Below are positions 26,998-45,751 of a stretch of DNA of 55,577 nucleotides, piece after piece; position 1 is the first letter of the stretch, and each line of letters opens with the position of its first letter. The stretch spans positions 1 through 55,577 of the forward strand of contig JACNKC010000090.1 in NCBI GenBank assembly GCA_014382245.1. The letters are read 5' to 3'. A program made the translations under genes and the position numbers. The notes beneath the pieces are model-generated. The model was not told the origin of the DNA, searched no databases, and was given only the letters and a program-made list of their open reading frames with translations. This DNA is from Pseudomonadota bacterium. GTDB lineage: Bacteria; Desulfobacterota; Binatia; UBA1149.

Positions 26998-27684
26998 ATG
27001 AAAGAGGGTCTCTACTTCAAGCAACTCGCGATCGGCCCCATGGCCAACTACGTCTACCTGATCGGCGACAAGAGCGAGCGCAAAGCGGTGGTGGTTGATC
27101 CCGCGTGGGACATAGACGCCATACTCGCCCAGCTCGACGAGGACGACATGGAACTGGTCGGCGCCCTGGCGACCCACTACCACCCCGACCACATCGGCGG
27201 CGACATGATGGGCCACAGCATCGAGGGCCTCGACACGCTGATGGAAAAACGGCCGGTGAAGATTTATATCCACAAAGCCGAGGCGCCTTACGTGGCCCAG
27301 ACCACCGGGCTTGAGAGCAGCGACTACGTGGCGGTTGATGGTGAGACCAGCCTCGACGTGGGAAAGATTCCTGTTCGTTTTCTGCACACTCCCGGCCACA
27401 CGCCGGGCTCGCAGTGCTTCCTCGTGGACGGCAACGTCGTATCGGGGGACACGCTTTTCATCGGCGCCTGCGGGCGGGTAGACCTGCCCGGAAGCAACCC
27501 CGAAGACCTCTACTACAGCCTCAAGCAGAAGCTGTCGGCCCTGCCCGACGACACCGTCGTTTACCCCGGCCACAACTACGCGACGGACAGCAGCTCGACC
27601 ATAGGCGCCGAGAAAAAGTCCAATGTTTTCATGCGTTTTGAAAACCTGCAGCAGTTCCTCTCGATGATGGGCGTAGCCGGCTGA
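26998..27684 (+). CDS. Metallo-beta-lactamase-fold hydrolase (glyoxalase-II-like)
   Basis: 228 residues with all metal-binding motifs: THYHPDHIGGD, HTPGHTPGSQCF, SGDTLFIGACGRVDL and VYPGHNYA. The pattern is that of hydroxyacylglutathione hydrolases and persulfide dioxygenase-like proteins: PGSQCFLVDG, SGDTLF and PGHNY. The substrate is uncertain: thioester hydrolysis is the likeliest reaction. It sits in a probable operon with the corrinoid adenosyltransferase. Confidence 0.85.
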   Translation: MKEGLYFKQLAIGPMANYVYLIGDKSERKAVVVDPAWDIDAILAQLDEDDMELVGALATHYHPDHIGGDMMGHSIEGLDTLMEKRPVKIYIHKAEAPYVAQTTGLESSDYVAVDGETSLDVGKIPVRFLHTPGHTPGSQCFLVDGNVVSGDTLFIGACGRVDLPGSNPEDLYYSLKQKLSALPDDTVVYPGHNYATDSSSTIGAEKKSNVFMRFENLQQFLSMMGVAG

Positions 27685-27725: not shown

Positions 27726-27752
27726 TTGACATCACTGGGTTCAGAACATAAT
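27726..27752 (+). promoter_or_regulatory. Putative promoter of the first Cys-rich paralogue
   Basis: TTGACA at 27726-27731 and CATAAT at 27747-27752 (five of six consensus -10 bases), spaced by 15 bases, slightly short. A purine-rich AAGGAG ribosome binding site precedes the ATG at 27821. Confidence 0.45.
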
Positions 27753-27820
27753 CACGGCTGCTGTAAGCGGCGAAAGCGAGGCTTACAACAACGAAAAAAC
27801 TAAGGAGAAAATCAACTGTT

Positions 27821-29911
27821 ATGAGATCCATAAAAGTACTGTCTCTCACCACACTATTTGCGTTGACGGCCCTGTTCGGTTCGGGTCTGCTCGCGTCAGG
27901 GGCCCACGCGGCCATGACCAAGGACGAGGCCAAGTGCCGCAGCACGATCTTCAAGACGACGTCCAAGTACCAGGCCGGTGCATGGAAGGCCGTGGCGGGA
28001 TGTCACAAGGGCAAGCTCAAGGGCAAGGTTGGTGCCGGCGTTGACTGCAATGACCCCATACTAGCTGACACCAAGGGTAAGCTGGCCAAGGCTGCTTCCA
28101 AGATCCGCGATTCGCTGGGTGGAGCCAAGGACAAGTGCGCTGACAAGACAACCGGAGCCGCGCTCTCAAACGTACTGGCTGCCTACGGCCGCTGCCCCTC
28201 GCCCGGTGAAATTTCCGACGACGGTGGAGCCACGGACGGCATAGATGATTTTTCTGAACTGGCCGACTGCCTGATCGCGGTCTCGGACAGCCTCATCGCC
28301 ACCACGGCCAGCGAGGTCATGGGTGACCCGGATCACGCCTCGCTCAGCAAGGACCAGGCGAAGTGCCAGGGTACGATCGGAAAAAACACCGCCAAGTTGA
28401 TAGCGACCATCGGCAAGGAGCGTGGCAAGTGCCAGGCCGGGGCTGACAAGGCCGGCGGCGATATAGACTGGACCTGCGGCTCTTTTGACGGCAAGGGCAA
28501 AATCAGCAAATCCGGTCTGAAGTTCAAGGACGGCATAACCAAGGCCTGCCTGGGCGACGAGGAAACCCTCGACGCGCTCGATTCCTGCGGCGACACGGTC
28601 GCACAACTACAGGCCTGTGTCGTGGACACCATCGCCACCAAGGTAGGCGGCGGCATGACCGCCATGCTCTTCGAGCTGCCCGGCGTGTGCCCCGCGTCGG
28701 TAAAGGTCACCACCCTGGCCGGCTACGGACAGCAACGCACATCTACCGAGCTCAGCCTGGGCTGGACCGGACTTGCCCACGGCGTCGATGTTCTCGACGG
28801 CTGGATAGGCGAGGCCAACCTGGCCTGCGATTCGGACTGCGACAACTGCGCGGTAACCGTGCTGCCTGTGGATAAAACCCTTGGCAATTGCCGCTGCGAC
28901 AACGACCCGACCATAAGCTGCGACGAGCCCTTCGGAGCCGAAGACGCAGACGACTGCGGCGCGGGCAACGAGTGCATTTGTCGTTTCGGTCCGCCCCTGG
29001 CGCTGTCAACCGCCGGGGTCCCGGTATGCGTGCTGACCAAAATAGCCAACGAGCTGGTAGGCAGCGCAGACGCCGGAACGGCGCAGGCGAGCACCACGAT
29101 CAACGGAGAGAGCAGCGTGTACACGGGGCTAACCGTGACCCAGCCCTGCCCCACCTGCGACGGGAGCGCCTGCAACGGAGGACCGCGCGATGGCCTGGCC
29201 TGCACGGTGAACGCCGTGCACCCGACCTTCGGCAACAGCAGCTTTGACTGCCAGCCGGACCCGGGCACGCGCATACCGGGCACGGTAAAGACTACGCTGA
29301 ACACCACCACGGGGGATTCCTCCCTGGGCTTCGACCTGAGCTGCGATCCTCCATTGACCGGCACTGCCTGCGCCTGCGCGGTGTGCAGCGGCGACAGCAC
29401 GGTGGCCTGCAACTCGGACGCCGAGTGCGCGGCGGTGGGCGCCGGTGTCTGCGACAGCAACGGTGGCGGCGCAGCACGCTTTCCCAACGCCTGTGCCGAC
29501 GGCGTGTGCAGCGACTCGGGCGACGGCATACACGGAGTCTGCAACGCGAGCCCGAGCAGCCAGTTCTGCGACGGTGAACTGCGTGCCAACGGCCAGGGTT
29601 ACATACCCTGCGCCAGTGACGCCGACTGCGATGCGCTGGACCCGGAATGTGACGGTGGTGACTGCGGACTGTGCGGAGGCGGGGCCCAGCGCTCTTGCTT
29701 CCTCGACCCCGTCACGGCCTCGGGTGACCCCGGGCTGAACGGCTCGAGCCTGGTTGCAACCTGGTGCACGCCCCCCACGAGCAACTCGGCGGTCAACAAC
29801 GCCGGCGGCTCACCCGGACCGGGGCGCCTTAACGTGCGTTTCGACTTCACCGGTTACTGCCCCGATGGAGTCACCCCCTTCGAGACACCGGGCGGATCAA
29901 ACTGCCCCTGA
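27821..29911 (+). CDS. Exported Lys/Cys-rich repeat protein, tandem paralogue 1
   Basis: 696 residues. A signal peptide ends at AHA|AM, and the mature protein begins MTKDEAKCRSTI. The N-terminal 300 or so residues hold two helical, lysine-rich units with regular cysteines: one around WKAVAGCHKGKLKGK, a second around KDQAKCQGTIGKN and ERGKCQAGADKAGG. The C-terminal half is Cys-rich with CDSDCDNC-type and CNSDAECAAVGAGVCD, CASDADCDALDPEC patterns and ends GGSNCP. Around 50% identity to the next gene is apparent by eye along the whole length. No catalytic motif, membrane anchor or sorting signal is visible; a secreted or surface structural/binding role is an inference. Disulfide-rich fold expected. 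Confidence 0.85.
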   Translation: MRSIKVLSLTTLFALTALFGSGLLASGAHAAMTKDEAKCRSTIFKTTSKYQAGAWKAVAGCHKGKLKGKVGAGVDCNDPILADTKGKLAKAASKIRDSLGGAKDKCADKTTGAALSNVLAAYGRCPSPGEISDDGGATDGIDDFSELADCLIAVSDSLIATTASEVMGDPDHASLSKDQAKCQGTIGKNTAKLIATIGKERGKCQAGADKAGGDIDWTCGSFDGKGKISKSGLKFKDGITKACLGDEETLDALDSCGDTVAQLQACVVDTIATKVGGGMTAMLFELPGVCPASVKVTTLAGYGQQRTSTELSLGWTGLAHGVDVLDGWIGEANLACDSDCDNCAVTVLPVDKTLGNCRCDNDPTISCDEPFGAEDADDCGAGNECICRFGPPLALSTAGVPVCVLTKIANELVGSADAGTAQASTTINGESSVYTGLTVTQPCPTCDGSACNGGPRDGLACTVNAVHPTFGNSSFDCQPDPGTRIPGTVKTTLNTTTGDSSLGFDLSCDPPLTGTACACAVCSGDSTVACNSDAECAAVGAGVCDSNGGGAARFPNACADGVCSDSGDGIHGVCNASPSSQFCDGELRANGQGYIPCASDADCDALDPECDGGDCGLCGGGAQRSCFLDPVTASGDPGLNGSSLVATWCTPPTSNSAVNNAGGSPGPGRLNVRFDFTGYCPDGVTPFETPGGSNCP

Positions 29912-29941
29912 CTGGCGCATCGACAGCGACCCGACCCATGG

Positions 29942-29978
29942 CCCCCGCGGTGCTTACCCCACCGCGGGGGTTTGCTTT
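29942..29978 (+). terminator. Strong intrinsic terminator after paralogue 1
   Basis: Perfect 11-bp GC stem: CCCCCGCGGTG (29942-29952) and its complement (29960-29970), 7-base loop, followed by TTTGCTTT. Placed 31 bases after the stop codon of the first paralogue. Confidence 0.85.
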
Positions 29979-30069
29979 GCCTGAAAAGAATACCGGGTCC
30001 GCCCGCCGGCTGATTCAAAAAAAAATGCATCTGCACTACTTTCCCCACCCGGTTGGGGGGGGTTTGCGG

Positions 30070-30099
30070 TTGACACCACCCCCACCAGTAGACTAGATT
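30070..30099 (+). promoter_or_regulatory. Putative sigma70-type promoter of paralogue 2
   Basis: TTGACA (30070-30075) with TAGATT (30094-30099), 18-base spacer. It predicts a leader of about 110 bases before the ATG at 30218. Confidence 0.5.
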
Positions 30100-30217
30100 C
30101 GCGCAGCATACTCGAGTACCGGAGTGCCACGCGTAGCGGGGACCGCACAACGGGCGCCCAAACCACAACAACCCTTCCCGGGTATATCAGGGAAACAAAC
30201 AGGAGGAGATAAGACAC

Positions 30218-32296
30218 ATGACAAGCAAGTGGACAGGAATTGTCGCGGCCACTATCGCGGCGCTGGTACTGGCGTTTGGCGTACCGACGGCGGATGCCCA
30301 GTTGACCAAGGACGAGGCTAAGTGCCGGAGCACGATTGGCAAGAATGTGACCAAGTACGTGGCCACCGCGTGGAAGGCGGTTGGCGGCTGCCACAAGGGC
30401 CGAGACAAGGGCAAGATGGGCGCGGGGACCAATTGCAACGACCTGGGCCAGGCCGACACCAAGGGTAAACTCACCAAGGCTGCCTCCAAGCTCCGCTCTT
30501 CGGTTGGCGGCGCAAAAGACAAGTGCGCTGACAAGACCACTGGCAACCCGTTCACCAACGTGTTGGCCCAGTACGGACGCTGCCCATCACCGGCCTGGGC
30601 CACAGATGACGGCGGCGCCACCAATGGCATTGACGACTTCGCCGAACTTTCGGACTGCCTGATCGCCCTGGCCGACGCCACGGTTGAGATGGCTTCGAAG
30701 GAAATCCACGGCCTGCCCGCCAGTCCCAGCGGATTATCCAAGGAACAGCTCAAGTGCCGCGGTGCCATCTCGAAGAACGCTGGCAAGCTGGTGGCCACGG
30801 TGGGCAAAGAACGCAACAAGTGCCAGGCGACTGCCGACAAGGCACTCGGCCCGATTTCCTGGACCTGCGGATCTTTTGACGGCAAGGGTAAGATTGCCGG
30901 CACGGCAAGTAAGACCAATGCCGCGATCGCCAAGTCCTGCGACCTGTCCAAGAACGCGCTGAACTCCATCGAGTCCTGCGGCGACACGGTTGCCCAGTTG
31001 CAGGCCTGCGTGACCAACGACGTGGCTATCACTAACGGTGGCGGCACGGTGGCCATGGCCTTCGAACTGCCCGGCAACTGCCCGGCCAGCTTCCCGGTGC
31101 TGTTCAACGGTGGTTTCGGCGCCCAGCTCACCAACTCCGAACTGGACTCGGGTTACAACGGCGGTGCCCACGACGTGGACATTGTCGACGCCTTCCAGAG
31201 CGCGGTGCTTACGTCCTGCGACGCCGACTGCGCCAATTGCAATGTAACCGAAGACCCCTCGCCGGGTTATTGCCGTTGCTCCAACGACATCACGACGACT
31301 TGCGACCAGCCCTTTGCTGCCGATGTGGCAAATTGCGGTGGCAACATCTGCGACTGCTTCTTCGGACCGCCGCTGTCGCTGTCAAGTTCGGGCACACCGG
31401 TCTGCGTGATCAACCAGATCACAACCCCTCTGTCCTGCAACTGCGACGGCATCACCGGCGAGTGCAATGGCACCTGCGACATCGCGCTGGTATCGCGCCT
31501 GCACTCGGGCATTGGCCAGACCAGGCCCTGCCCGACCTGCGAGGGCGGCACCTGCAACGGCGGACCGAGAGACGGCCTGGCCTGCACGGTAGACGCCACT
31601 CACCCGGACTTCGGGCCCGGCGCCATCGAGTGCCCCCCGGACCCTGGCAGCAAGATCAGCGACCTCGCTATCTCGCTCAGCCTGACCCACGGAGTGGCCA
31701 GCATGCCGTTCGGCACGCAGTGTGACGCACCGCTCGCGGCCAGCAGCTGCGCCTGTGCTGTGTGTAGCGGTGACAGCACGGTAGGTTGTAACTCCGACGC
31801 CGAGTGCGCGGCCCTGGGTGCCGGCACCTGCGACAGCAACGGTGGAGGAGCTGCGCGTTTCCCCAACGCCTGCAGTGACGGCGTTTGCGGAGTCGACGAT
31901 GTCGCGAGCGGACAGGAAGGCTACTGCACCGGTGGCGACTCGGTCACTTTCTGCGACGACCACCTGAGGCAGAACGGCAGGGGTCTTATTCCCTGCGCCA
32001 GCAATGCTGACTGCGACGCGCTCGCTTCGGAGTGCAACGGTGGTAGCTGCGGAACCTGCACCCTGGTGCAGGGTCGTGACTGCTACCTCGATCCCATCGA
32101 GGCAGCGGGTGACCCCAGCCCCTACGGTGGCGACATGGGAGCCATATTCTGTGTGCCGCCCACCGCCAGCCCGGCCGTGAACAACGCCGGCGGCATCCCG
32201 GCGGCCGGCAGGGTTACGATCAACTTCGACTACCACGGTATGTGTTCCGACGGCGTGACCGCCTTCGAAGCGCCGGGTGGATCGAACTGCCCGTAA
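30218..32296 (+). CDS. Exported Lys/Cys-rich repeat protein, tandem paralogue 2
   Basis: 692 residues, ATG at 30218 behind an AGGAGGAG ribosome binding site. The signal peptide ends ADA|QL, and the mature N-terminus TKDEAKCRSTI is identical to that of paralogue 1. It shares the two-unit helical N-terminal half (WKAVGGCHKGRDKGK; KEQLKCRGAISKN; ERNKCQATADKA), the CGDTVAQLQACV hinge, the FELPGNCPAS linker and the Cys-rich C-terminal half ending GGSNCP. An extra loop with CNCDGITGECNGTCD is found only here. No enzymatic motif is visible. It is followed by its own terminator. Probably secreted; function unknown. Confidence 0.85.
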   Translation: MTSKWTGIVAATIAALVLAFGVPTADAQLTKDEAKCRSTIGKNVTKYVATAWKAVGGCHKGRDKGKMGAGTNCNDLGQADTKGKLTKAASKLRSSVGGAKDKCADKTTGNPFTNVLAQYGRCPSPAWATDDGGATNGIDDFAELSDCLIALADATVEMASKEIHGLPASPSGLSKEQLKCRGAISKNAGKLVATVGKERNKCQATADKALGPISWTCGSFDGKGKIAGTASKTNAAIAKSCDLSKNALNSIESCGDTVAQLQACVTNDVAITNGGGTVAMAFELPGNCPASFPVLFNGGFGAQLTNSELDSGYNGGAHDVDIVDAFQSAVLTSCDADCANCNVTEDPSPGYCRCSNDITTTCDQPFAADVANCGGNICDCFFGPPLSLSSSGTPVCVINQITTPLSCNCDGITGECNGTCDIALVSRLHSGIGQTRPCPTCEGGTCNGGPRDGLACTVDATHPDFGPGAIECPPDPGSKISDLAISLSLTHGVASMPFGTQCDAPLAASSCACAVCSGDSTVGCNSDAECAALGAGTCDSNGGGAARFPNACSDGVCGVDDVASGQEGYCTGGDSVTFCDDHLRQNGRGLIPCASNADCDALASECNGGSCGTCTLVQGRDCYLDPIEAAGDPSPYGGDMGAIFCVPPTASPAVNNAGGIPAAGRVTINFDYHGMCSDGVTAFEAPGGSNCP

Positions 32297-32347
32297 CGCC
32301 CGGCTCTATTGAGCGTCAGCACCCTGAAAGGGGCTGAACGAACGACG

Positions 32348-32383
32348 CCCCCGCAGTGGACCAACCCGCTGCGGGGGTTTTTT
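32348..32383 (+). terminator. Strong intrinsic terminator after paralogue 2
   Basis: 9-bp stem CCCCCGCAG (32348-32356) with CTGCGGGGG (32369-32377), a 12-base loop and a TTTTTT run at 32378-32383. The stem resembles the terminator after paralogue 1 (same CCCCCGC/GCGGGGG outer arms). Confidence 0.9.
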
Positions 32384-32392
32384 ATGCCGTGC

Positions 32393-35300
32393 TCAGGCGC
32401 GGGCGATGTCGCCGGCGGTAAACAGGTGGGTCAGCCAGGCGTTGGTGAGCTTCTCGAGCACACCGTTGGCACGCAGGCGATCGTTGAGGTTGGCAAAATC
32501 AACCCGGTCGAGTCGCTGGTCCTGGTTGAAGCAGGAGAACACCGGCGGCAGCTCCTCGCCGGTTTCGGGATCGATGTGCTTCTGCAGGCACTGGGCGCAG
32601 ATCTCTTTCATCATGCACTGCATGGTGGAGTTTATAGACCCCAGGGCCAGCAGGTCGGGCGACAGGAACTTCGCGTGGCTGCCACGCACCGCCTGCCCGA
32701 CGGCTGCCATCATGCGATCCGAGCCGATGGCTATAAGCCTCGAGGCCTCGGCAACATCTATGAGCGGCTCACCCATCTCGCCGGTGGCGTAAGCTTCGAG
32801 AGCCTGCAACACGTTGCCCACCGTGCTGCGGTCCTGGTCACGGCGGGGCTTTATGGGCTCGCCCTGGTCGACCGACCACACCACCACGTCGGCAGCGGCC
32901 TCGATGTCGTCCTCGTGGTAAACGTCGTCGGGGCTCTTATAGGCCGCAAAGTAGATGACCTTGTTGCCGCGCTCGCGCATGGCCCGGCCGATAGAAAACT
33001 GCACGGCGTTGCCAAGACCACCGCCGAAAAGGATCACCGTCTCGCCCGTGGGTATCTCGGTGGGCGCGCCGGTGGGGCCCATGAGCACCAGCGGGGTGCC
33101 CGGCTCCCAGGTGGCACACAGTCGCGAGCTGCCGCCCATCTCGAGCACTATGGTCGAGAGCAGGCCTTGTTCCCGGTCGACCCAGGCCCCCGTAAGCGCC
33201 ATCCCCTCGGCGGCAAGCGTGGTGCCGTTGACCTCGGTGGCAAGGGTCTCGTAGTTCTGCAGGCGGTAGAACTGTCCAGGTTCAAAGTGCCGGGTGGCAA
33301 AAGGTGCCTTGACCACGATCTCGACAATATTGGACGTGAGCCTTATTACTTCGTGCACGCGTGGCATCAGTCCTTCTTCGAGGCGAGCGGCCATGGTGTC
33401 CCAGTCGCGCTCGCGGGCGGCCTGGTCGGCGGCATCGAGTCCGGCCAGCTCGTCGGCAAAAAGATCCACTATCTGCGGGTAACCGTCGCGGGCCGAGGCC
33501 ATGGCCTTGACCACGTTGCCTGCGTAATCGGGATGGTTGTCGCCGAAGTAAGAAACCAGGCGCTGCGGGCCACCGCTGGCGCCGGACGTATGCGAGGTGA
33601 ACACCCCGGGCTTGCCCTCGAGCGGCTCATCGACCACCGGGTGGGGAGACGACCCGTTCTGGCCGGCACCGTTCTGGCCGGCGCTATCCTTCTCCATCCG
33701 AAAGCGCTTGAAGAACCTGCCGCGTTCATCCATCTCAAAACTGCCCGGATGCTCGCGCTCGTAAATCACGTTGGGCGAGGTGCCGGCAGCGACAAACAGG
33801 GCCCGGGCCGACAGCTTCACGGTCTCTCCGGTGCCGGCCCAACGACCGTCAACCTGCTCCTGCTGCTCGAACAGCAAACCGTCGAGCGCACCGTACTCGT
33901 CCTGCAGCGCCTCGGTGGGGCTGAGCGTCTCGGCGTACCAGATGCCTTCTTCCAGCGCCTTGCTCACTTCTTCGTGGTTGAGCCTGTAGGCTGGCGAATC
34001 GACCAGCCCCTTGCGGTAGGCCATCGTCACGCCGCCCCAGGACCTGAGCAGCGGCACGAAGTCGGGCAGCTCGCCGGCAGCCTCCGCACGGGATCTCTCG
34101 GCACGGATTGCGCGGCCGTGCTCGAGAAACTCGTCGAGTATGGCCGGTTCTTCGTCACCAAAGTACAACGCGCGCACGGCTTCCTCACCGTTCTCTTCAA
34201 CAAGGGTCTCGTAGCGGTCCAGCGTCTTTTCGACCTGCACCGGGTAGTAGGCCATGACCTCGGTGCTGGTGTCTATTGCTGTCAGGCCTCCACCCACCAC
34301 CACCGCTGGCAACCTAACCTGCAGGTTGGTCATCGATGATTTCTTCTGGGCACCGGTCAGCTGCAGCCCCATCAGGAAGTCAGACGCCTTGCGCACGCCC
34401 CTGATAAGGTTGTTCTTCATATTGAGAACCGTCGGCTTGCCCGCGCCGGTGGCTATGGCCACGTGGTCGAAGCCGAGCTCCCAGGCGTCTTCAATCATCA
34501 GGGTACCGCCAAAACGCACCCCGCCGTAAGCCTTGAACCTGGGCTGCCGCGACAGGCACACGCGCATGACCTGGAGAAAGTTCTTGTCCCAGCGCACGGT
34601 GATGCCGTACTCGGCCACGCCGCCGAAACCCATGAGCGGGCGCTCGTCGAGCTCCTCGTAGAGCTCCGAAAAATCGGCTATCGGTTCCGGCTCTGGACTA
34701 CCCAGTCCCTCGGGCAGGGGTTCGAGCTTGAGACCGTCGATACCGACCACGCCGAAGCCCTCCGACAGCAGGTAGTGGGCAAGGGTGTAACCGGCGGGCC
34801 CGAGCCCCACCACGAGCACGTTACGCCCGTTGTAGGGCTTGGTCTGCGCGCAGCGACGGTTGATGGGGTTCCACCTGCACAGCAAGCTGTAAACTTCGAA
34901 GCCCCAGGGCAGGTCGAGCACGTCGGTGAGCACGCGGGTTTCGATCTGCGGAATATTTACCGGCTCAAACTTCTGGTAAATGCAGCCCTTCATGCAATCG
35001 TTGCATATGCGGTGGCCGGTACCCGGCACCATGGGGTTGTCGATCATGATCAGCGCCAGGGCCGCGATGCTGTCGCCCTCGGCCTGGCAGGCGTGCATTT
35101 CCGAGATTTTTTCGTCCAGCGGACAACCGCCGAGCTCTATGCCAAGCGGGTTGCTGGCCAGGCGGCCGTCCTTGCCGAACACGCCCTTGCTGCAGGAGTC
35201 CTTGTCGCGGGTGTGGCAAAGGATGCAGTAGTCGACTTCGGACATCACCTGCTTGCGGTCGTAGCGACGGTCGGTAAGTTCAAAGCCGTCGCGACGGCGC

Positions 35301-36028
35301 ATGCTTTCGGCGGGGCCCTCCATGAGCCACGGCCGCTCGGGATCCGGGTGCTCGAGCTCCACGAGCTGGTTGAAGTCAATTTTCTCGGGGGTCTTGAAAC
35401 TGGCCCAGCCCGAGGTCAGCGATTGCTGATCGCCGTGGCCGGAGCGAACGCGACACCATAAGGCAGCATCGCCGAGAAACTTGTCGGCCAGCGCTTCACC
35501 CTCGGCCCCCTCCGACGACCAGGCGTCCAGCGCGTCGATGATTCCGTGGGCCGGCGAGTCACCCGGATCGGCCAGCAGGTCGCATACGAGGGCGGCAAAC
35601 ACGAGCTCAGCGTCGGCCGTGGTGGCCCCCGCCCCGGCTGCGAGGTCGAGCACGACCTGGTCAAAAGCGTCGGCGTCGAAGCCCTGCAGATCATCGTCGG
35701 TGACTTTTTTTACGCGCTTGCCGAGAAACTGCTTCTTGAACTGCCATAGCGGGCCCAGCTCCTTGACGCCTTCGGCCAGCTCGCCAGCGGCCGCTTCTAT
35801 GCCAAAAAGCTGCACAACGAAGGTCGATTGGCTGCCGGCCATCTCGACCAGCAGCTTGCTCTCGTCTACGGCCGAGATCTCGGCACCAGAGCGGTACTGC
35901 TCAAAACGGGCCGCGAGATCGGCGTCGGCCGCCGCCAGCCAGGAGTAGAAGCACTCGCTCAGTTCGGCCAGGCGGGCCGGGTCGAAGAGGTCCTGGTAAG
36001 AGAATCCGTCGATCTTGAGTTGCAGCAT
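32393..36028 (-). CDS. Giant fused flavoprotein oxidoreductase (NfnB/GltD-like plus FNR/PyrK-like)
   Basis: 1211 residues, ATG at 36028. Parts in order: an N-terminal helical region of unknown fold (1-260); a Cys-rich segment with C268-C271-C279, C302 and C342-C345-C349, plausible Fe-S ligands of the GltD type; a pyridine-nucleotide-disulfide-oxidoreductase-like core with FAD motif VVGLGPAGY (406-414) and second nucleotide motif VVVGGGLTAID (576-586); a low-complexity linker (AGQNGAGQNG, 783-792); then a ferredoxin-reductase-like part with FEPGQFYRLQNY (915-926), NAD-binding FGGGLGNAVQF (1001-1011) and C1138-C1144-C1147-C1166, spaced like the PyrK [2Fe-2S] site. The order matches NfnB and NfnA fused in one chain, suggesting NAD(P)H transhydrogenation or bifurcation; this is an inference. 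Confidence 0.85.
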   Translation of the reverse strand: MLQLKIDGFSYQDLFDPARLAELSECFYSWLAAADADLAARFEQYRSGAEISAVDESKLLVEMAGSQSTFVVQLFGIEAAAGELAEGVKELGPLWQFKKQFLGKRVKKVTDDDLQGFDADAFDQVVLDLAAGAGATTADAELVFAALVCDLLADPGDSPAHGIIDALDAWSSEGAEGEALADKFLGDAALWCRVRSGHGDQQSLTSGWASFKTPEKIDFNQLVELEHPDPERPWLMEGPAESMRRRDGFELTDRRYDRKQVMSEVDYCILCHTRDKDSCSKGVFGKDGRLASNPLGIELGGCPLDEKISEMHACQAEGDSIAALALIMIDNPMVPGTGHRICNDCMKGCIYQKFEPVNIPQIETRVLTDVLDLPWGFEVYSLLCRWNPINRRCAQTKPYNGRNVLVVGLGPAGYTLAHYLLSEGFGVVGIDGLKLEPLPEGLGSPEPEPIADFSELYEELDERPLMGFGGVAEYGITVRWDKNFLQVMRVCLSRQPRFKAYGGVRFGGTLMIEDAWELGFDHVAIATGAGKPTVLNMKNNLIRGVRKASDFLMGLQLTGAQKKSSMTNLQVRLPAVVVGGGLTAIDTSTEVMAYYPVQVEKTLDRYETLVEENGEEAVRALYFGDEEPAILDEFLEHGRAIRAERSRAEAAGELPDFVPLLRSWGGVTMAYRKGLVDSPAYRLNHEEVSKALEEGIWYAETLSPTEALQDEYGALDGLLFEQQEQVDGRWAGTGETVKLSARALFVAAGTSPNVIYEREHPGSFEMDERGRFFKRFRMEKDSAGQNGAGQNGSSPHPVVDEPLEGKPGVFTSHTSGASGGPQRLVSYFGDNHPDYAGNVVKAMASARDGYPQIVDLFADELAGLDAADQAARERDWDTMAARLEEGLMPRVHEVIRLTSNIVEIVVKAPFATRHFEPGQFYRLQNYETLATEVNGTTLAAEGMALTGAWVDREQGLLSTIVLEMGGSSRLCATWEPGTPLVLMGPTGAPTEIPTGETVILFGGGLGNAVQFSIGRAMRERGNKVIYFAAYKSPDDVYHEDDIEAAADVVVWSVDQGEPIKPRRDQDRSTVGNVLQALEAYATGEMGEPLIDVAEASRLIAIGSDRMMAAVGQAVRGSHAKFLSPDLLALGSINSTMQCMMKEICAQCLQKHIDPETGEELPPVFSCFNQDQRLDRVDFANLNDRLRANGVLEKLTNAWLTHLFTAGDIARA

Positions 36029-36272: not shown

Positions 36273-37427
36273 ATGGCAGTAAAAACCGAGGCCTGGGTAC
36301 TACACGCAGGCGAAAAAGGCGGCAGCCCGGTGAGCACCGAGTTGGTACGCGAAACTTTCGAATTCGACGAGCCCGGCCCGCAGGAAGCCCTGGTGGAGCC
36401 GCTTATCGGTTGCATGGAAGGCAACATGGGCCACGCCATCGAGCGGCGGCCGATAGACATCTGCCTGGCCCGCGGCGAAGACCGCGTGGTCATAGGCAAC
36501 GCCGGCGTGGTACGCGTGGGCAAGGTCGGAGACGAGGTCAGCACCGTAAAGGAAGGCGACACCGCCATTCTCTTCTGCAACGGCAAGGCCGATGCCCACG
36601 GCTACCCCGAGAGGATCTTTGCCTACGACGCAGAGGGCACCGTCGGCATGCTCGCGAAGCAAAGCCGCTTTGGCCAGTCGCAGCTCATTCCCCTGCCCGG
36701 CGACACGAAGTACTCGCTGGAGCAGTGGGCCGCGTTCTCGCTGCGCTACATAACGGCGTGGTCCAACTGGGAGCTGGCCTACGGCACCCTGCGCTTGCTG
36801 CTCGACAAAACCGACCTGCCCAGGCCGCGGGTGTGGGGCTGGGGTGGCGGCGTCACCATGGGCGAGCTCGGGCTGGCAAAACACGCCGGCTGCGATGTCA
36901 CCCAGGTCGCCTCTACCGACGACCGCCTGGCCATGATAGAGGCCCAGGGCATTCGCCCGGTCGACCGTCGCGAGTTCAAGGACCTGTATTTTGACAAGTC
37001 ACGTTTTCGCAAGGACGAGGACTACACCAAGGCTTACACCGCGGCCGAGAAGACCTTTCTCGCCAAGGTGCGCGACATTACCGACGGCGACATGGTGAAC
37101 ATCTTCGTCGACTTCGTCGGCGCGCCGGTGTTCAGGGCCACCCTCAAGGCGCTGGCGCGTGAGGGCGTGGTGACCACGGCAGGCTGGAAAGAGGGCATGA
37201 TGATTGAGCTGGTGCGAGCCAGCGAGTGCATCGCCCGCCACCAGCACGTGCACACGCACTACGCGCGTTACAGCCAGGGCGTGGCAGCCGTGGCCTTTGC
37301 CGAAGAGCAGGGCTGGCTGCCGCCGGCCGACGAAAACGTTTACGGCTGGGACGAAGTGCCCGACCTTTTCAAGGACTACAACGCGGGTAACACGGGCTGG
37401 TTCCCGGTCTACCGCATCAACGACTGA
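36273..37427 (+). CDS. Medium-chain dehydrogenase/reductase, crotonyl-CoA-reductase-like
   Basis: 384 residues of the MDR superfamily: an N-terminal GroES-like domain (FEFDEPGPQEALVEPLIGCMEGNMGHAIERRP) and a Rossmann domain with VWGWGGGVTMGELGLAKHAG as nucleotide-binding loop. The classical zinc ligands of alcohol dehydrogenases are not evident. The general layout, with a long N-terminal lobe and a SLRYITAWSNW segment, recalls crotonyl-CoA carboxylase/reductase-like reductases, but specificity cannot be fixed. It is first in a plus-strand run with a 3-hydroxyacyl-CoA dehydrogenase and an aldehyde dehydrogenase, so an acyl-CoA or enoyl substrate is plausible. GGAGCAGG precedes the ATG. Confidence 0.75.
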   Translation: MAVKTEAWVLHAGEKGGSPVSTELVRETFEFDEPGPQEALVEPLIGCMEGNMGHAIERRPIDICLARGEDRVVIGNAGVVRVGKVGDEVSTVKEGDTAILFCNGKADAHGYPERIFAYDAEGTVGMLAKQSRFGQSQLIPLPGDTKYSLEQWAAFSLRYITAWSNWELAYGTLRLLLDKTDLPRPRVWGWGGGVTMGELGLAKHAGCDVTQVASTDDRLAMIEAQGIRPVDRREFKDLYFDKSRFRKDEDYTKAYTAAEKTFLAKVRDITDGDMVNIFVDFVGAPVFRATLKALAREGVVTTAGWKEGMMIELVRASECIARHQHVHTHYARYSQGVAAVAFAEEQGWLPPADENVYGWDEVPDLFKDYNAGNTGWFPVYRIND

Positions 37428-43906: not shown

Positions 43907-45751
43907 ATGACAAAGCTGACTTCCAGGATAGCTCTCGTGACGGTGGCCACCGCAGCCCTGCTTCCGCTTGCGGAGCCCGACAGTGCGGCTGCGCTCAGCC
44001 GCCACGAAAACCGCTGCCGGGATCTCGTGGCCGCTACCGCCCGGCGATCGGCCAGGCTGCTGCTCAAGGCGCGCGGAAACTGCGTGCGCGGCAAAGCCTC
44101 GGGCAAATATGCACCTATCGTGGACTGTCTTCTCGACCCCGCCCCCGCGGGACCTGGCACCGGTGACGCCCGCGTAGACAAGAAGCTCGTCAGGGCCATC
44201 GACTACCGCGGAAAGCTTGACCAGCGCTGCAAGCCCGACGTCACTGCCGCTGCCATAGGCGTTGACGGACTGTGCGCAGCCGTGGCCACGCTGAGGGGCA
44301 GCGAAAACCGAACCACCGAGGCCGAGTGGCAGGCGCTGGATGCCTGCGCGGCGGACCTGGGCAAGACCATTGGCGACAACCTCGCGGCCACCATAAACAA
44401 ACCTGCCGCCGGCACACTTGGAGCCGAGGAAGCAGCCTGCCGCAGGGAGCTGGCGCTGAGGCTTCGCAAGTCGCTCGCACGGGGGCTGGCCCTGACAGGC
44501 AGATGTTTTTCGACCCTGGGCAAAGACCCGGCCCTGGGACTTAACTGCTACGCGGTGACCGGCTGGCCGGGAACAACGGCCAGCACGGGCGACACCAAGC
44601 TGGACTCCAGGATGACCAGGCCCTCACGGGCCCTGTTCCATGAGATAGACGACTTCTGCTCGGGTGATGTCAGCGCCATGGGCTTCGGCCTGGTTCTAGC
44701 CGACCCCACCGGCGGCACCTTTACCAGCAGTGATCTTTTTCACACCATCAACGACCAGCTCGCGCAGGCCCTCGCCAGCGCGGCTTCGTCTCTTTTCCCC
44801 GGCGGTCCCGAATGCGGCGACGGGGTGGTCGACCTCGGTGAACAGTGCGACGACGGCAATCGCCTGAGCTGCGACGGCTGCGACCGCAACTGCGCTCTGC
44901 CTGCCTGTGGCAACGGTGCCGCCTGTGCTCCCGAAACCTGCGACGACGGCAACACCACCGCCGAAGACGGCTGCAACGCAGTCTGCATTCCCGAAAGCTG
45001 CGGCGACGGCGTGATACAGGCCGGGCTCGACGAAACCTGCGACGACGGTAACACCAGCGACTGCGACGGCTGCGACAGCACCTGCAAGACAAGCGGCTGC
45101 GGCAGCGGCGCGATCTGCGCTCCCGAAACCTGCGACGACGGTAACACGGTGGCCAGCGACGGCTGCTCGGATACCTGCATTACCGAGTTCTGCGGCGACG
45201 GCATCATCCAGGCCGGCTTACTCGAACAGTGTGACGACGGCGCCGGCAACTCCGACGTAAACGCGGATGCCTGTCGTTCAGACTGCCTCAATCCCTGGTG
45301 CGGGGACGGAGTGACTGACCCCGCTTCGGGCGAGACCTGCGACGCGGGCAATGCCAACAGCGACTTGCTCCCCAACAGCTGTCGCTCCAACTGTCTCGTT
45401 GCTTCCTGCGGCGACGGCGTAGCCGACAGCGGCGAAACCTGTGACGACGGTAACACGGCCAACATTGATTCCTGTCTCAACAGTTGTATGCCGGCTACCT
45501 GCGGCGACGGATTTCTCTGCAGCGACGCCTCCTGTACCAGCGGCCCAGGCGGCGGACCCGAGCAGTGCGACGACGGCAACGCCAACGACGTCGACACCTG
45601 CACCAATGGCTGCACCATACAGAGCGTAAGCACCACCAGCACCACCTCGAGCACTACCACAACGTCCACCTCTTCGACCACGACCACCTCTTCGACCACC
45701 ACCACGTCGACGACCACGACCACCTCTTCGACCACGACCACCACGCTCTGA
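43907..45751 (+). CDS. Exported DUF4215 repeat protein with a Ser/Thr-rich tail and related helical N-terminal units
   Basis: 614 residues. Signal peptide ends SAA|AL, mature N-terminus SRHENRCRDLV. The N-terminal 300 residues contain two helical Cys/Lys-Arg units (KARGNCVRGKASGK; KSLARGLALTGRCF) that echo the paralogues at 27.8 and 30.2 kb. Eight DUF4215-type repeats follow (about 302-565), each with a CDDGN-like core (QCDDGNR, TCDDGNT three times, QCDDGAG, TCDAGNA, TCDDGNT, QCDDGNA) and CGDG starts. The last 38 residues are nearly only Ser and Thr. Such architectures are found on secreted or surface proteins; the tail might be glycosylated. Substrate or partner unknown. Confidence 0.88.
   Translation: MTKLTSRIALVTVATAALLPLAEPDSAAALSRHENRCRDLVAATARRSARLLLKARGNCVRGKASGKYAPIVDCLLDPAPAGPGTGDARVDKKLVRAIDYRGKLDQRCKPDVTAAAIGVDGLCAAVATLRGSENRTTEAEWQALDACAADLGKTIGDNLAATINKPAAGTLGAEEAACRRELALRLRKSLARGLALTGRCFSTLGKDPALGLNCYAVTGWPGTTASTGDTKLDSRMTRPSRALFHEIDDFCSGDVSAMGFGLVLADPTGGTFTSSDLFHTINDQLAQALASAASSLFPGGPECGDGVVDLGEQCDDGNRLSCDGCDRNCALPACGNGAACAPETCDDGNTTAEDGCNAVCIPESCGDGVIQAGLDETCDDGNTSDCDGCDSTCKTSGCGSGAICAPETCDDGNTVASDGCSDTCITEFCGDGIIQAGLLEQCDDGAGNSDVNADACRSDCLNPWCGDGVTDPASGETCDAGNANSDLLPNSCRSNCLVASCGDGVADSGETCDDGNTANIDSCLNSCMPATCGDGFLCSDASCTSGPGGGPEQCDDGNANDVDTCTNGCTIQSVSTTSTTSSTTTTSTSSTTTTSSTTTTSTTTTTSSTTTTTL
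45634..45746 (+). repeat. Ser/Thr-coding simple-sequence tail
   Basis: A block of ACC/ACG/TCG/AGC codons with recurring ACCACCTCTTCGACC-type units that encodes the Ser/Thr tail of the DUF4215 protein. Prone to copy-number change. Confidence 0.75.

Follow-up and report, generated by a model that had tools for sequence, protein, structure and literature searches.

Tandem genes for exported, cysteine-rich proteins in an uncultured bacterium belong to a lineage-wide modular family with a candidate docking domain

Two neighbouring genes of an uncultured bacterium raise the question of what is done by a protein that is exported, rich in cysteine, without a match in the domain databases and encoded twice in succession. 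The genes, here called A and B, lie in a contig of 55,577 nucleotides (JACNKC010000090.1 of assembly GCA_014382245.1; hereafter the window) from a bacterium of the GTDB lineage Desulfobacterota; Binatia; UBA1149, whose 2.94-Mb genome (G000) is assembled in 129 contigs. An earlier note, made from the letters of the window alone, had described two exported neighbours of about 690 residues. The open reading frames (ORFs) are exactly where it placed them, gene A at positions 27821 to 29911 (696 aa) and gene B at 30218 to 32296 (692 aa), both, like all features below unless marked otherwise, on the forward strand. Their products are full-length paralogues with a signal peptide each, identical at 393 of 691 positions (57%, 730 bits by BLASTP, far above chance), which is too close for the 'extensive' divergence that had been attributed to them. 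The tandem pair itself is not the natural unit of interest; that unit is a modular family that spans the lineage and has dozens of members per genome.

A and B are, as far as can be seen all but certainly, Sec-exported, disulfide-rich proteins of two modules each. The signal peptides occupy positions 27821 to 27910 in A and 30218 to 30298 in B, and by inspection cleavage is expected after AHA (between ASGAHA and AMTK) and after ADA (between PTADA and QLTK), respectively. The N-terminal module (N-module) follows at 27911 to 28624 in A, with helical units at about 27911-28138 and 28343-28549, and at 30302 to 31012 in B, with units at about 30299-30526 and 30734-30940. The C-terminal module (C-module) lies at 28679 to 29905 in A, where it is acidic, holds 36 cysteines and is predicted to be rich in beta structure, and at 31070 to 32290 in B. 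The proteins end in ETPGGSNCP (A) and EAPGGSNCP (B), neither with a hydrophobic segment. The shared segments TKDEAKCRSTI, CGDTVAQLQACV and CNSDAECAA singled out in the earlier note are all found in both proteins. However, CGDTVAQLQACV is not a hinge as had been proposed; the alignment and a structure model place it in the last helix of the N-module, together with that module's last two cysteines. The description of the proteins as rich in lysine and cysteine holds for the N-module but fails for the C-modules of A and B, which have one to four lysines and a net charge of about -35.

The N-module is about 230 aa long and is made of a helical unit of about 100 aa, duplicated internally, with six cysteines per unit in fixed order. 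Ten cysteines are invariant in an alignment of 29 N-module homologues, and twelve are present at 98% or more in a set of 80 modules. The two halves match one another in a profile comparison with their cysteines in register (hhalign E 1.2e-18, 33% identity), and an AlphaFold2 (AF2) model of the N-module of B, built from eight sequences, is a duplicated helical bundle (predicted local distance difference test score, pLDDT, 80.4; predicted template modelling score, pTM, 0.81). The two-unit helical module noticed earlier is thus real. As exactly two units occur in 94 of 102 ORFs, the module is best regarded as one folded pseudo-dimer and not as an open-ended repeat. The number of cysteines is even in 60 of the 80 modules, and they probably pair in six disulfides per module.

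The most distinctive feature of the N-module is a stripe of lysines. Ten positions, five at equivalent places in each unit (13, 17, 24, 55 and 62; 143, 147, 154, 182 and 189), hold lysine in 66-81% of the 80 modules and lie on one face of helix 1 and helix 2 in both units. The stripe lysines fall within a 40-degree sector of the helical wheel; those of helix 1 stand 120-160 degrees away from the face that carries the cysteines and hydrophobic residues. Lysine is favoured over arginine 5.4-fold at the stripe compared with the rest of the module (p 7e-44, computed from rows that are not independent), and its dominance holds in 55 representatives less than 45% identical to one another. The net charge of the module varies from -18 to +12. 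This range weakened a purely electrostatic 'cationic module', which we had considered, and the conserved lysine stripe took its place.

The C-module, in 40 copies, is about 410 aa long with about 36 cysteines, a net charge of about -32 and almost no lysine. The motifs GxxGxxHxxD and PCPxC are near-invariant, as are several aspartates, and the cysteine count is even in 34 of the 40 copies. It would most plausibly be a rigid domain that binds a ligand or Ca2+. An AF2 model from nine sequences is unreliable (pLDDT 47).

Neither module is represented in the collections that we searched. Pfam and NCBIfam gave A and B no match at E <= 1, no credible match to either database was found among 29 N-modules or 33 C-modules, and the PDB yielded no sequence relative. 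A marginal match to TIGR04201 occurs in 3 of the 33 C-modules (best E 0.0048). Plasmid and viral collections hold no relatives of B. Weak Pfam matches of family members in set A1 (Aegyptin_C and others) affect few members and were judged not credible. A search of the literature on the family returned nothing, and the words 'cysteine-rich', 'secreted' and 'secretion' do not occur in the Binatota genome paper (PMC8262859). The earlier suggestion of an uncharacterised secreted family is therefore borne out by Pfam, NCBIfam and the PDB for both modules.

The distribution of the N-module was examined in 13 genomes of the order, in a sample of 297 genomes of the phylum and in 145 genomes of the class; counts per genome are lower bounds. 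Each of the 13 genomes of the order has the module, in at least 11-56 copies. Six of the 297 phylum genomes contain a match, all of them within the same class, and a model of the single unit finds the same six. Within the class the unit model matches at least 52 of the 145 genomes, and the C-module at least 34. Each module also occurs without the other, so they are not obligate partners.

The N-module is joined to a wide range of exported proteins. We identified fusions with PhoD phosphatase, trypsin plus PPC, SMP-30/gluconolactonase-like domains, P-domain, RCC1 repeats, temptin-like domains, multihaem cytochrome, DUF4215 repeats and dockerin-like segments, and by eye also with CX3-4CH cytochrome-like and alpha/beta-hydrolase-like domains. 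It is N-terminal in 67 of the 80 modules and internal or C-terminal in 13, among them modules behind trypsin and multihaem domains. A hydrophobic h-region of the kind found in signal peptides precedes all 67 N-terminal modules, compared with 16% of control windows. The module is thus shuffled to either end of unrelated exported catalytic domains, as accessory domains are. Several of the fusions deserve separate mention. In L010, L081, L082 and L083 the N-module is combined with short cytochrome-c-like domains that have unusual candidate haem sites, CX3CH or CX4CH, and no Pfam match. A conserved pair of neighbours, one multihaem-cytochrome-like and the other temptin-like, each with an N-module at its end, is seen in L078 and L086 (by size also in L091 and L114).

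The genome encodes gspC-D-E-F and further parts of a type II secretion system (T2SS), and a VKOR-DsbA-like (thioredoxin) fusion, so export of folded, oxidised proteins is feasible. A Sec signal peptide in a genome with a T2SS is what is expected of type II secretion substrates. A fusion of 855 aa (L144:965-3529, reverse strand) joins VKOR, a DsbA-like thioredoxin, an FGE-sulfatase-like domain and an AhpC/TSA-like domain, and resembles a disulfide system in one protein.

Because shuffling has placed the N-module on many exported enzymes that are unrelated to one another, we favour an accessory role in retention or docking. We tentatively propose, with somewhat less than even confidence, that the N-module is a docking module whose lysine face makes the contact, and that A and B are docked binding proteins that bear the C-module. 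The proteins would be oxidised in the periplasm by the VKOR/DsbA-like system and would cross the outer membrane through the T2SS. The lysine face would then dock the proteins onto an anionic partner shared by all of them, either on the cell surface or within an extracellular matrix, while the second domain would carry out the particular function of each; for A and B this domain is the acidic C-module with its roughly 36 cysteines. A and B themselves would descend from a single ancestral gene, each slightly specialised and transcribed separately. A broader version, which we find possible but doubtful, makes the N-module the shared anchor of a class-wide extracellular system that gathers many mutually unrelated exported enzymes, cytochromes and binding proteins on one surface or matrix polymer. 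The preference for lysine over arginine raises the possibility of a lysine-specific, perhaps even covalent, attachment.

Several observations count against docking. A simple 'cationic glue' is too crude a picture, as the N-module does not keep its net charge from one member to another, and neither a partner nor a ligand is known. No domain of known surface-anchoring function stands alongside A or B, their passage through the T2SS is predicted from the signal peptides and the gene content of the genome, and the model of the C-module is too poor to bear out a function. Accessory domains may, moreover, contribute to folding or stability instead of anchoring. This last possibility can be put as an explanation of its own, in which the N-module is a pro-domain, a disulfide-clamped bundle that aids the folding of cysteine-rich passengers or protects them from proteases, and has no partner. 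Most N-modules do stand directly after the signal peptide, and their passengers are often rich in cysteine, as are the C-module and DUF4215. However, a pro-domain is hard to reconcile with the 13 internal or C-terminal modules, and the conservation of lysines along one face of the helix exceeds what stability seems to require. We consider this explanation unlikely.

The pairing of a lysine-rich with an acidic module invites a structural reading of A and B, in which each molecule would set the lysine face of its N-module against the acidic C-module of its neighbour, so that a disulfide-rich polymer forms, either a surface layer or a fibre of the matrix. The lysine-rich N-modules of A and B, their lack of a catalytic domain, and the maintenance of two copies, each transcribed separately and under selection, would all fit such subunits. 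The reading seems improbable to us, as the N-module also accompanies enzymes and occurs without the C-module, the C-module occurs without the N-module, and the net charge of the N-module varies. Finally, the cysteines of the C-module might bind metal with the conserved histidine and aspartates of GxxGxxHxxD, which would make A and B redox or metal proteins tied to the cytochrome fusions of the family. The multihaem or CX3-4CH cytochrome-like domains in several N-module proteins and the near-invariant histidine and aspartates agree with this. However, the even cysteine counts in most N- and C-modules are those predicted by disulfides, the export route passes an oxidising compartment, and A and B match no known metal-site family; we regard a redox or metal function as very improbable. 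Docking remains the reading that we prefer.

Lineage-specific accessory domains of exported proteins are known in general; these two domains are not. Proteins with DUF4215 (PF13948) or the Myxococcales cysteine-rich repeat (TIGR04201) are likewise exported, disulfide-rich and present in many copies per genome, and in paralogues, DUF4215 repeats lie between the N- and C-modules. However, these repeats are absent from A and B, which have no significant repeat match, and the two modules are longer domains in their own right. There are 68 matches to DUF4215 repeats in the 2.9-Mb genome that holds the window, and none in 14 control genomes. The PPC, P-domain and dockerin domains are, like the N-module, non-catalytic and shuffled among exported hydrolases, and one protein carries trypsin, an N-module and PPC together. 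In contrast to these, the N-module is all-helical with six probable disulfides and is neither a beta-sandwich nor an EF-hand; no sequence relation was found. The TraA-type surface receptors of myxobacteria are also exported and cysteine-rich with a separate N-terminal domain (PMC3325183). Unlike TraA, A and B have no PA14 match and no transmembrane tail or sorting tag of the MYXO-CTERM kind, and no test that we ran indicated homology.

The six-helix fold of PhoU, another duplicated helical bundle, is the top VIA-align 2 match to the model of the N-module (Z 8.6, root-mean-square deviation 5.1, 184 residues aligned, 9% identity), with a low Foldseek probability. PhoU is a cytoplasmic protein. 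The Z score, like those of the other PDB fold matches, is at the background level of helical bundles, and kinship with PhoU was dropped as evidence.

The two genes also appear to be transcribed independently. A promoter-like site precedes A at 27726 to 27754 (TTGACA, 17 nt, TAATCA) and B at 30070 to 30099 (TTGACA, 18 nt, TAGATT), and both are kept in three congeneric species, among which the region upstream of A drifts except for this site. A consensus scan returned the B promoter as its sole match (shuffle mean 0.5) and did not pick up the A site. Putative terminators follow at 29940 to 29974 for A (hairpin of -27.3 kcal/mol, with z -3.2 over the stretch around it) and at 32347 to 32384 for B (13-pair stem plus a T run; z -4.4), and both are conserved in the three congeners. 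The hairpins fold far better than shuffled sequences. The earlier claim that each gene has its own promoter-like site and terminator is upheld by this conservation, which supports A and B as separate transcription units.

Both copies are intact. The ratio of nonsynonymous to synonymous divergence (dN/dS) between congeners ranges over 0.14-0.27 in A and 0.19-0.39 in B, which indicates purifying selection on both; the degradation that would have spoken against a maintained pair is not seen. An apparent pseudogene of A in one congener (G001) is interrupted by a run of 117 N and is hence an assembly gap. Between A and B, dS is about 1.0-1.3 and no window shows a patch of low divergence, so nothing points to gene conversion in recent times; the high synonymous divergence in all windows and the clustering of A with A and B with B exclude it.

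A tree of 38 proteins recovers A and B as sister clades (support 93/98). Upstream of A, at 26998 to 27684, lies a gene for a metallo-beta-lactamase-fold protein (PF00753), and homologues in the other families of the order, present there in single copy, adjoin an equivalent gene. Downstream, at 36273 to 37427, the conserved locus includes a zinc-binding dehydrogenase-like gene (PF00107) that recurs as a neighbour in five genomes (L021, L022, L024, L026 and L027). Given the sister clades and the same neighbours beside homologues elsewhere in the order, the pair is best explained by a tandem duplication that took place in the family to which the genus belongs and that copied a gene with the same position throughout the order. 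This duplication, which the earlier note had called old, predates the three congeners but is younger than the divergence from the remaining families of the order.

Two domain families with no credible database entry thus recur in the exported cysteine-rich proteins of an uncultured lineage, and a run of 'hypothetical proteins' becomes a testable system. If the N-module is a docking domain of the surface or matrix, it would reveal which of their enzymes these bacteria hold on the outside, and it could be used as a marker and as a compact, disulfide-locked tag for cell-surface display.

A third, divergent member of the family is encoded in the window at 43907 to 45751, with a signal peptide, two helical units rich in lysine or arginine and cysteine, DUF4215 repeats and a long Thr/Ser tail. 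Facing gene B, at 32393-36028 on the reverse strand, is a gene for a redox protein of 1211 aa with a Pyr_redox_2 core. Its relatives were seen in the two congeners only; the corresponding locus in other families showed none.

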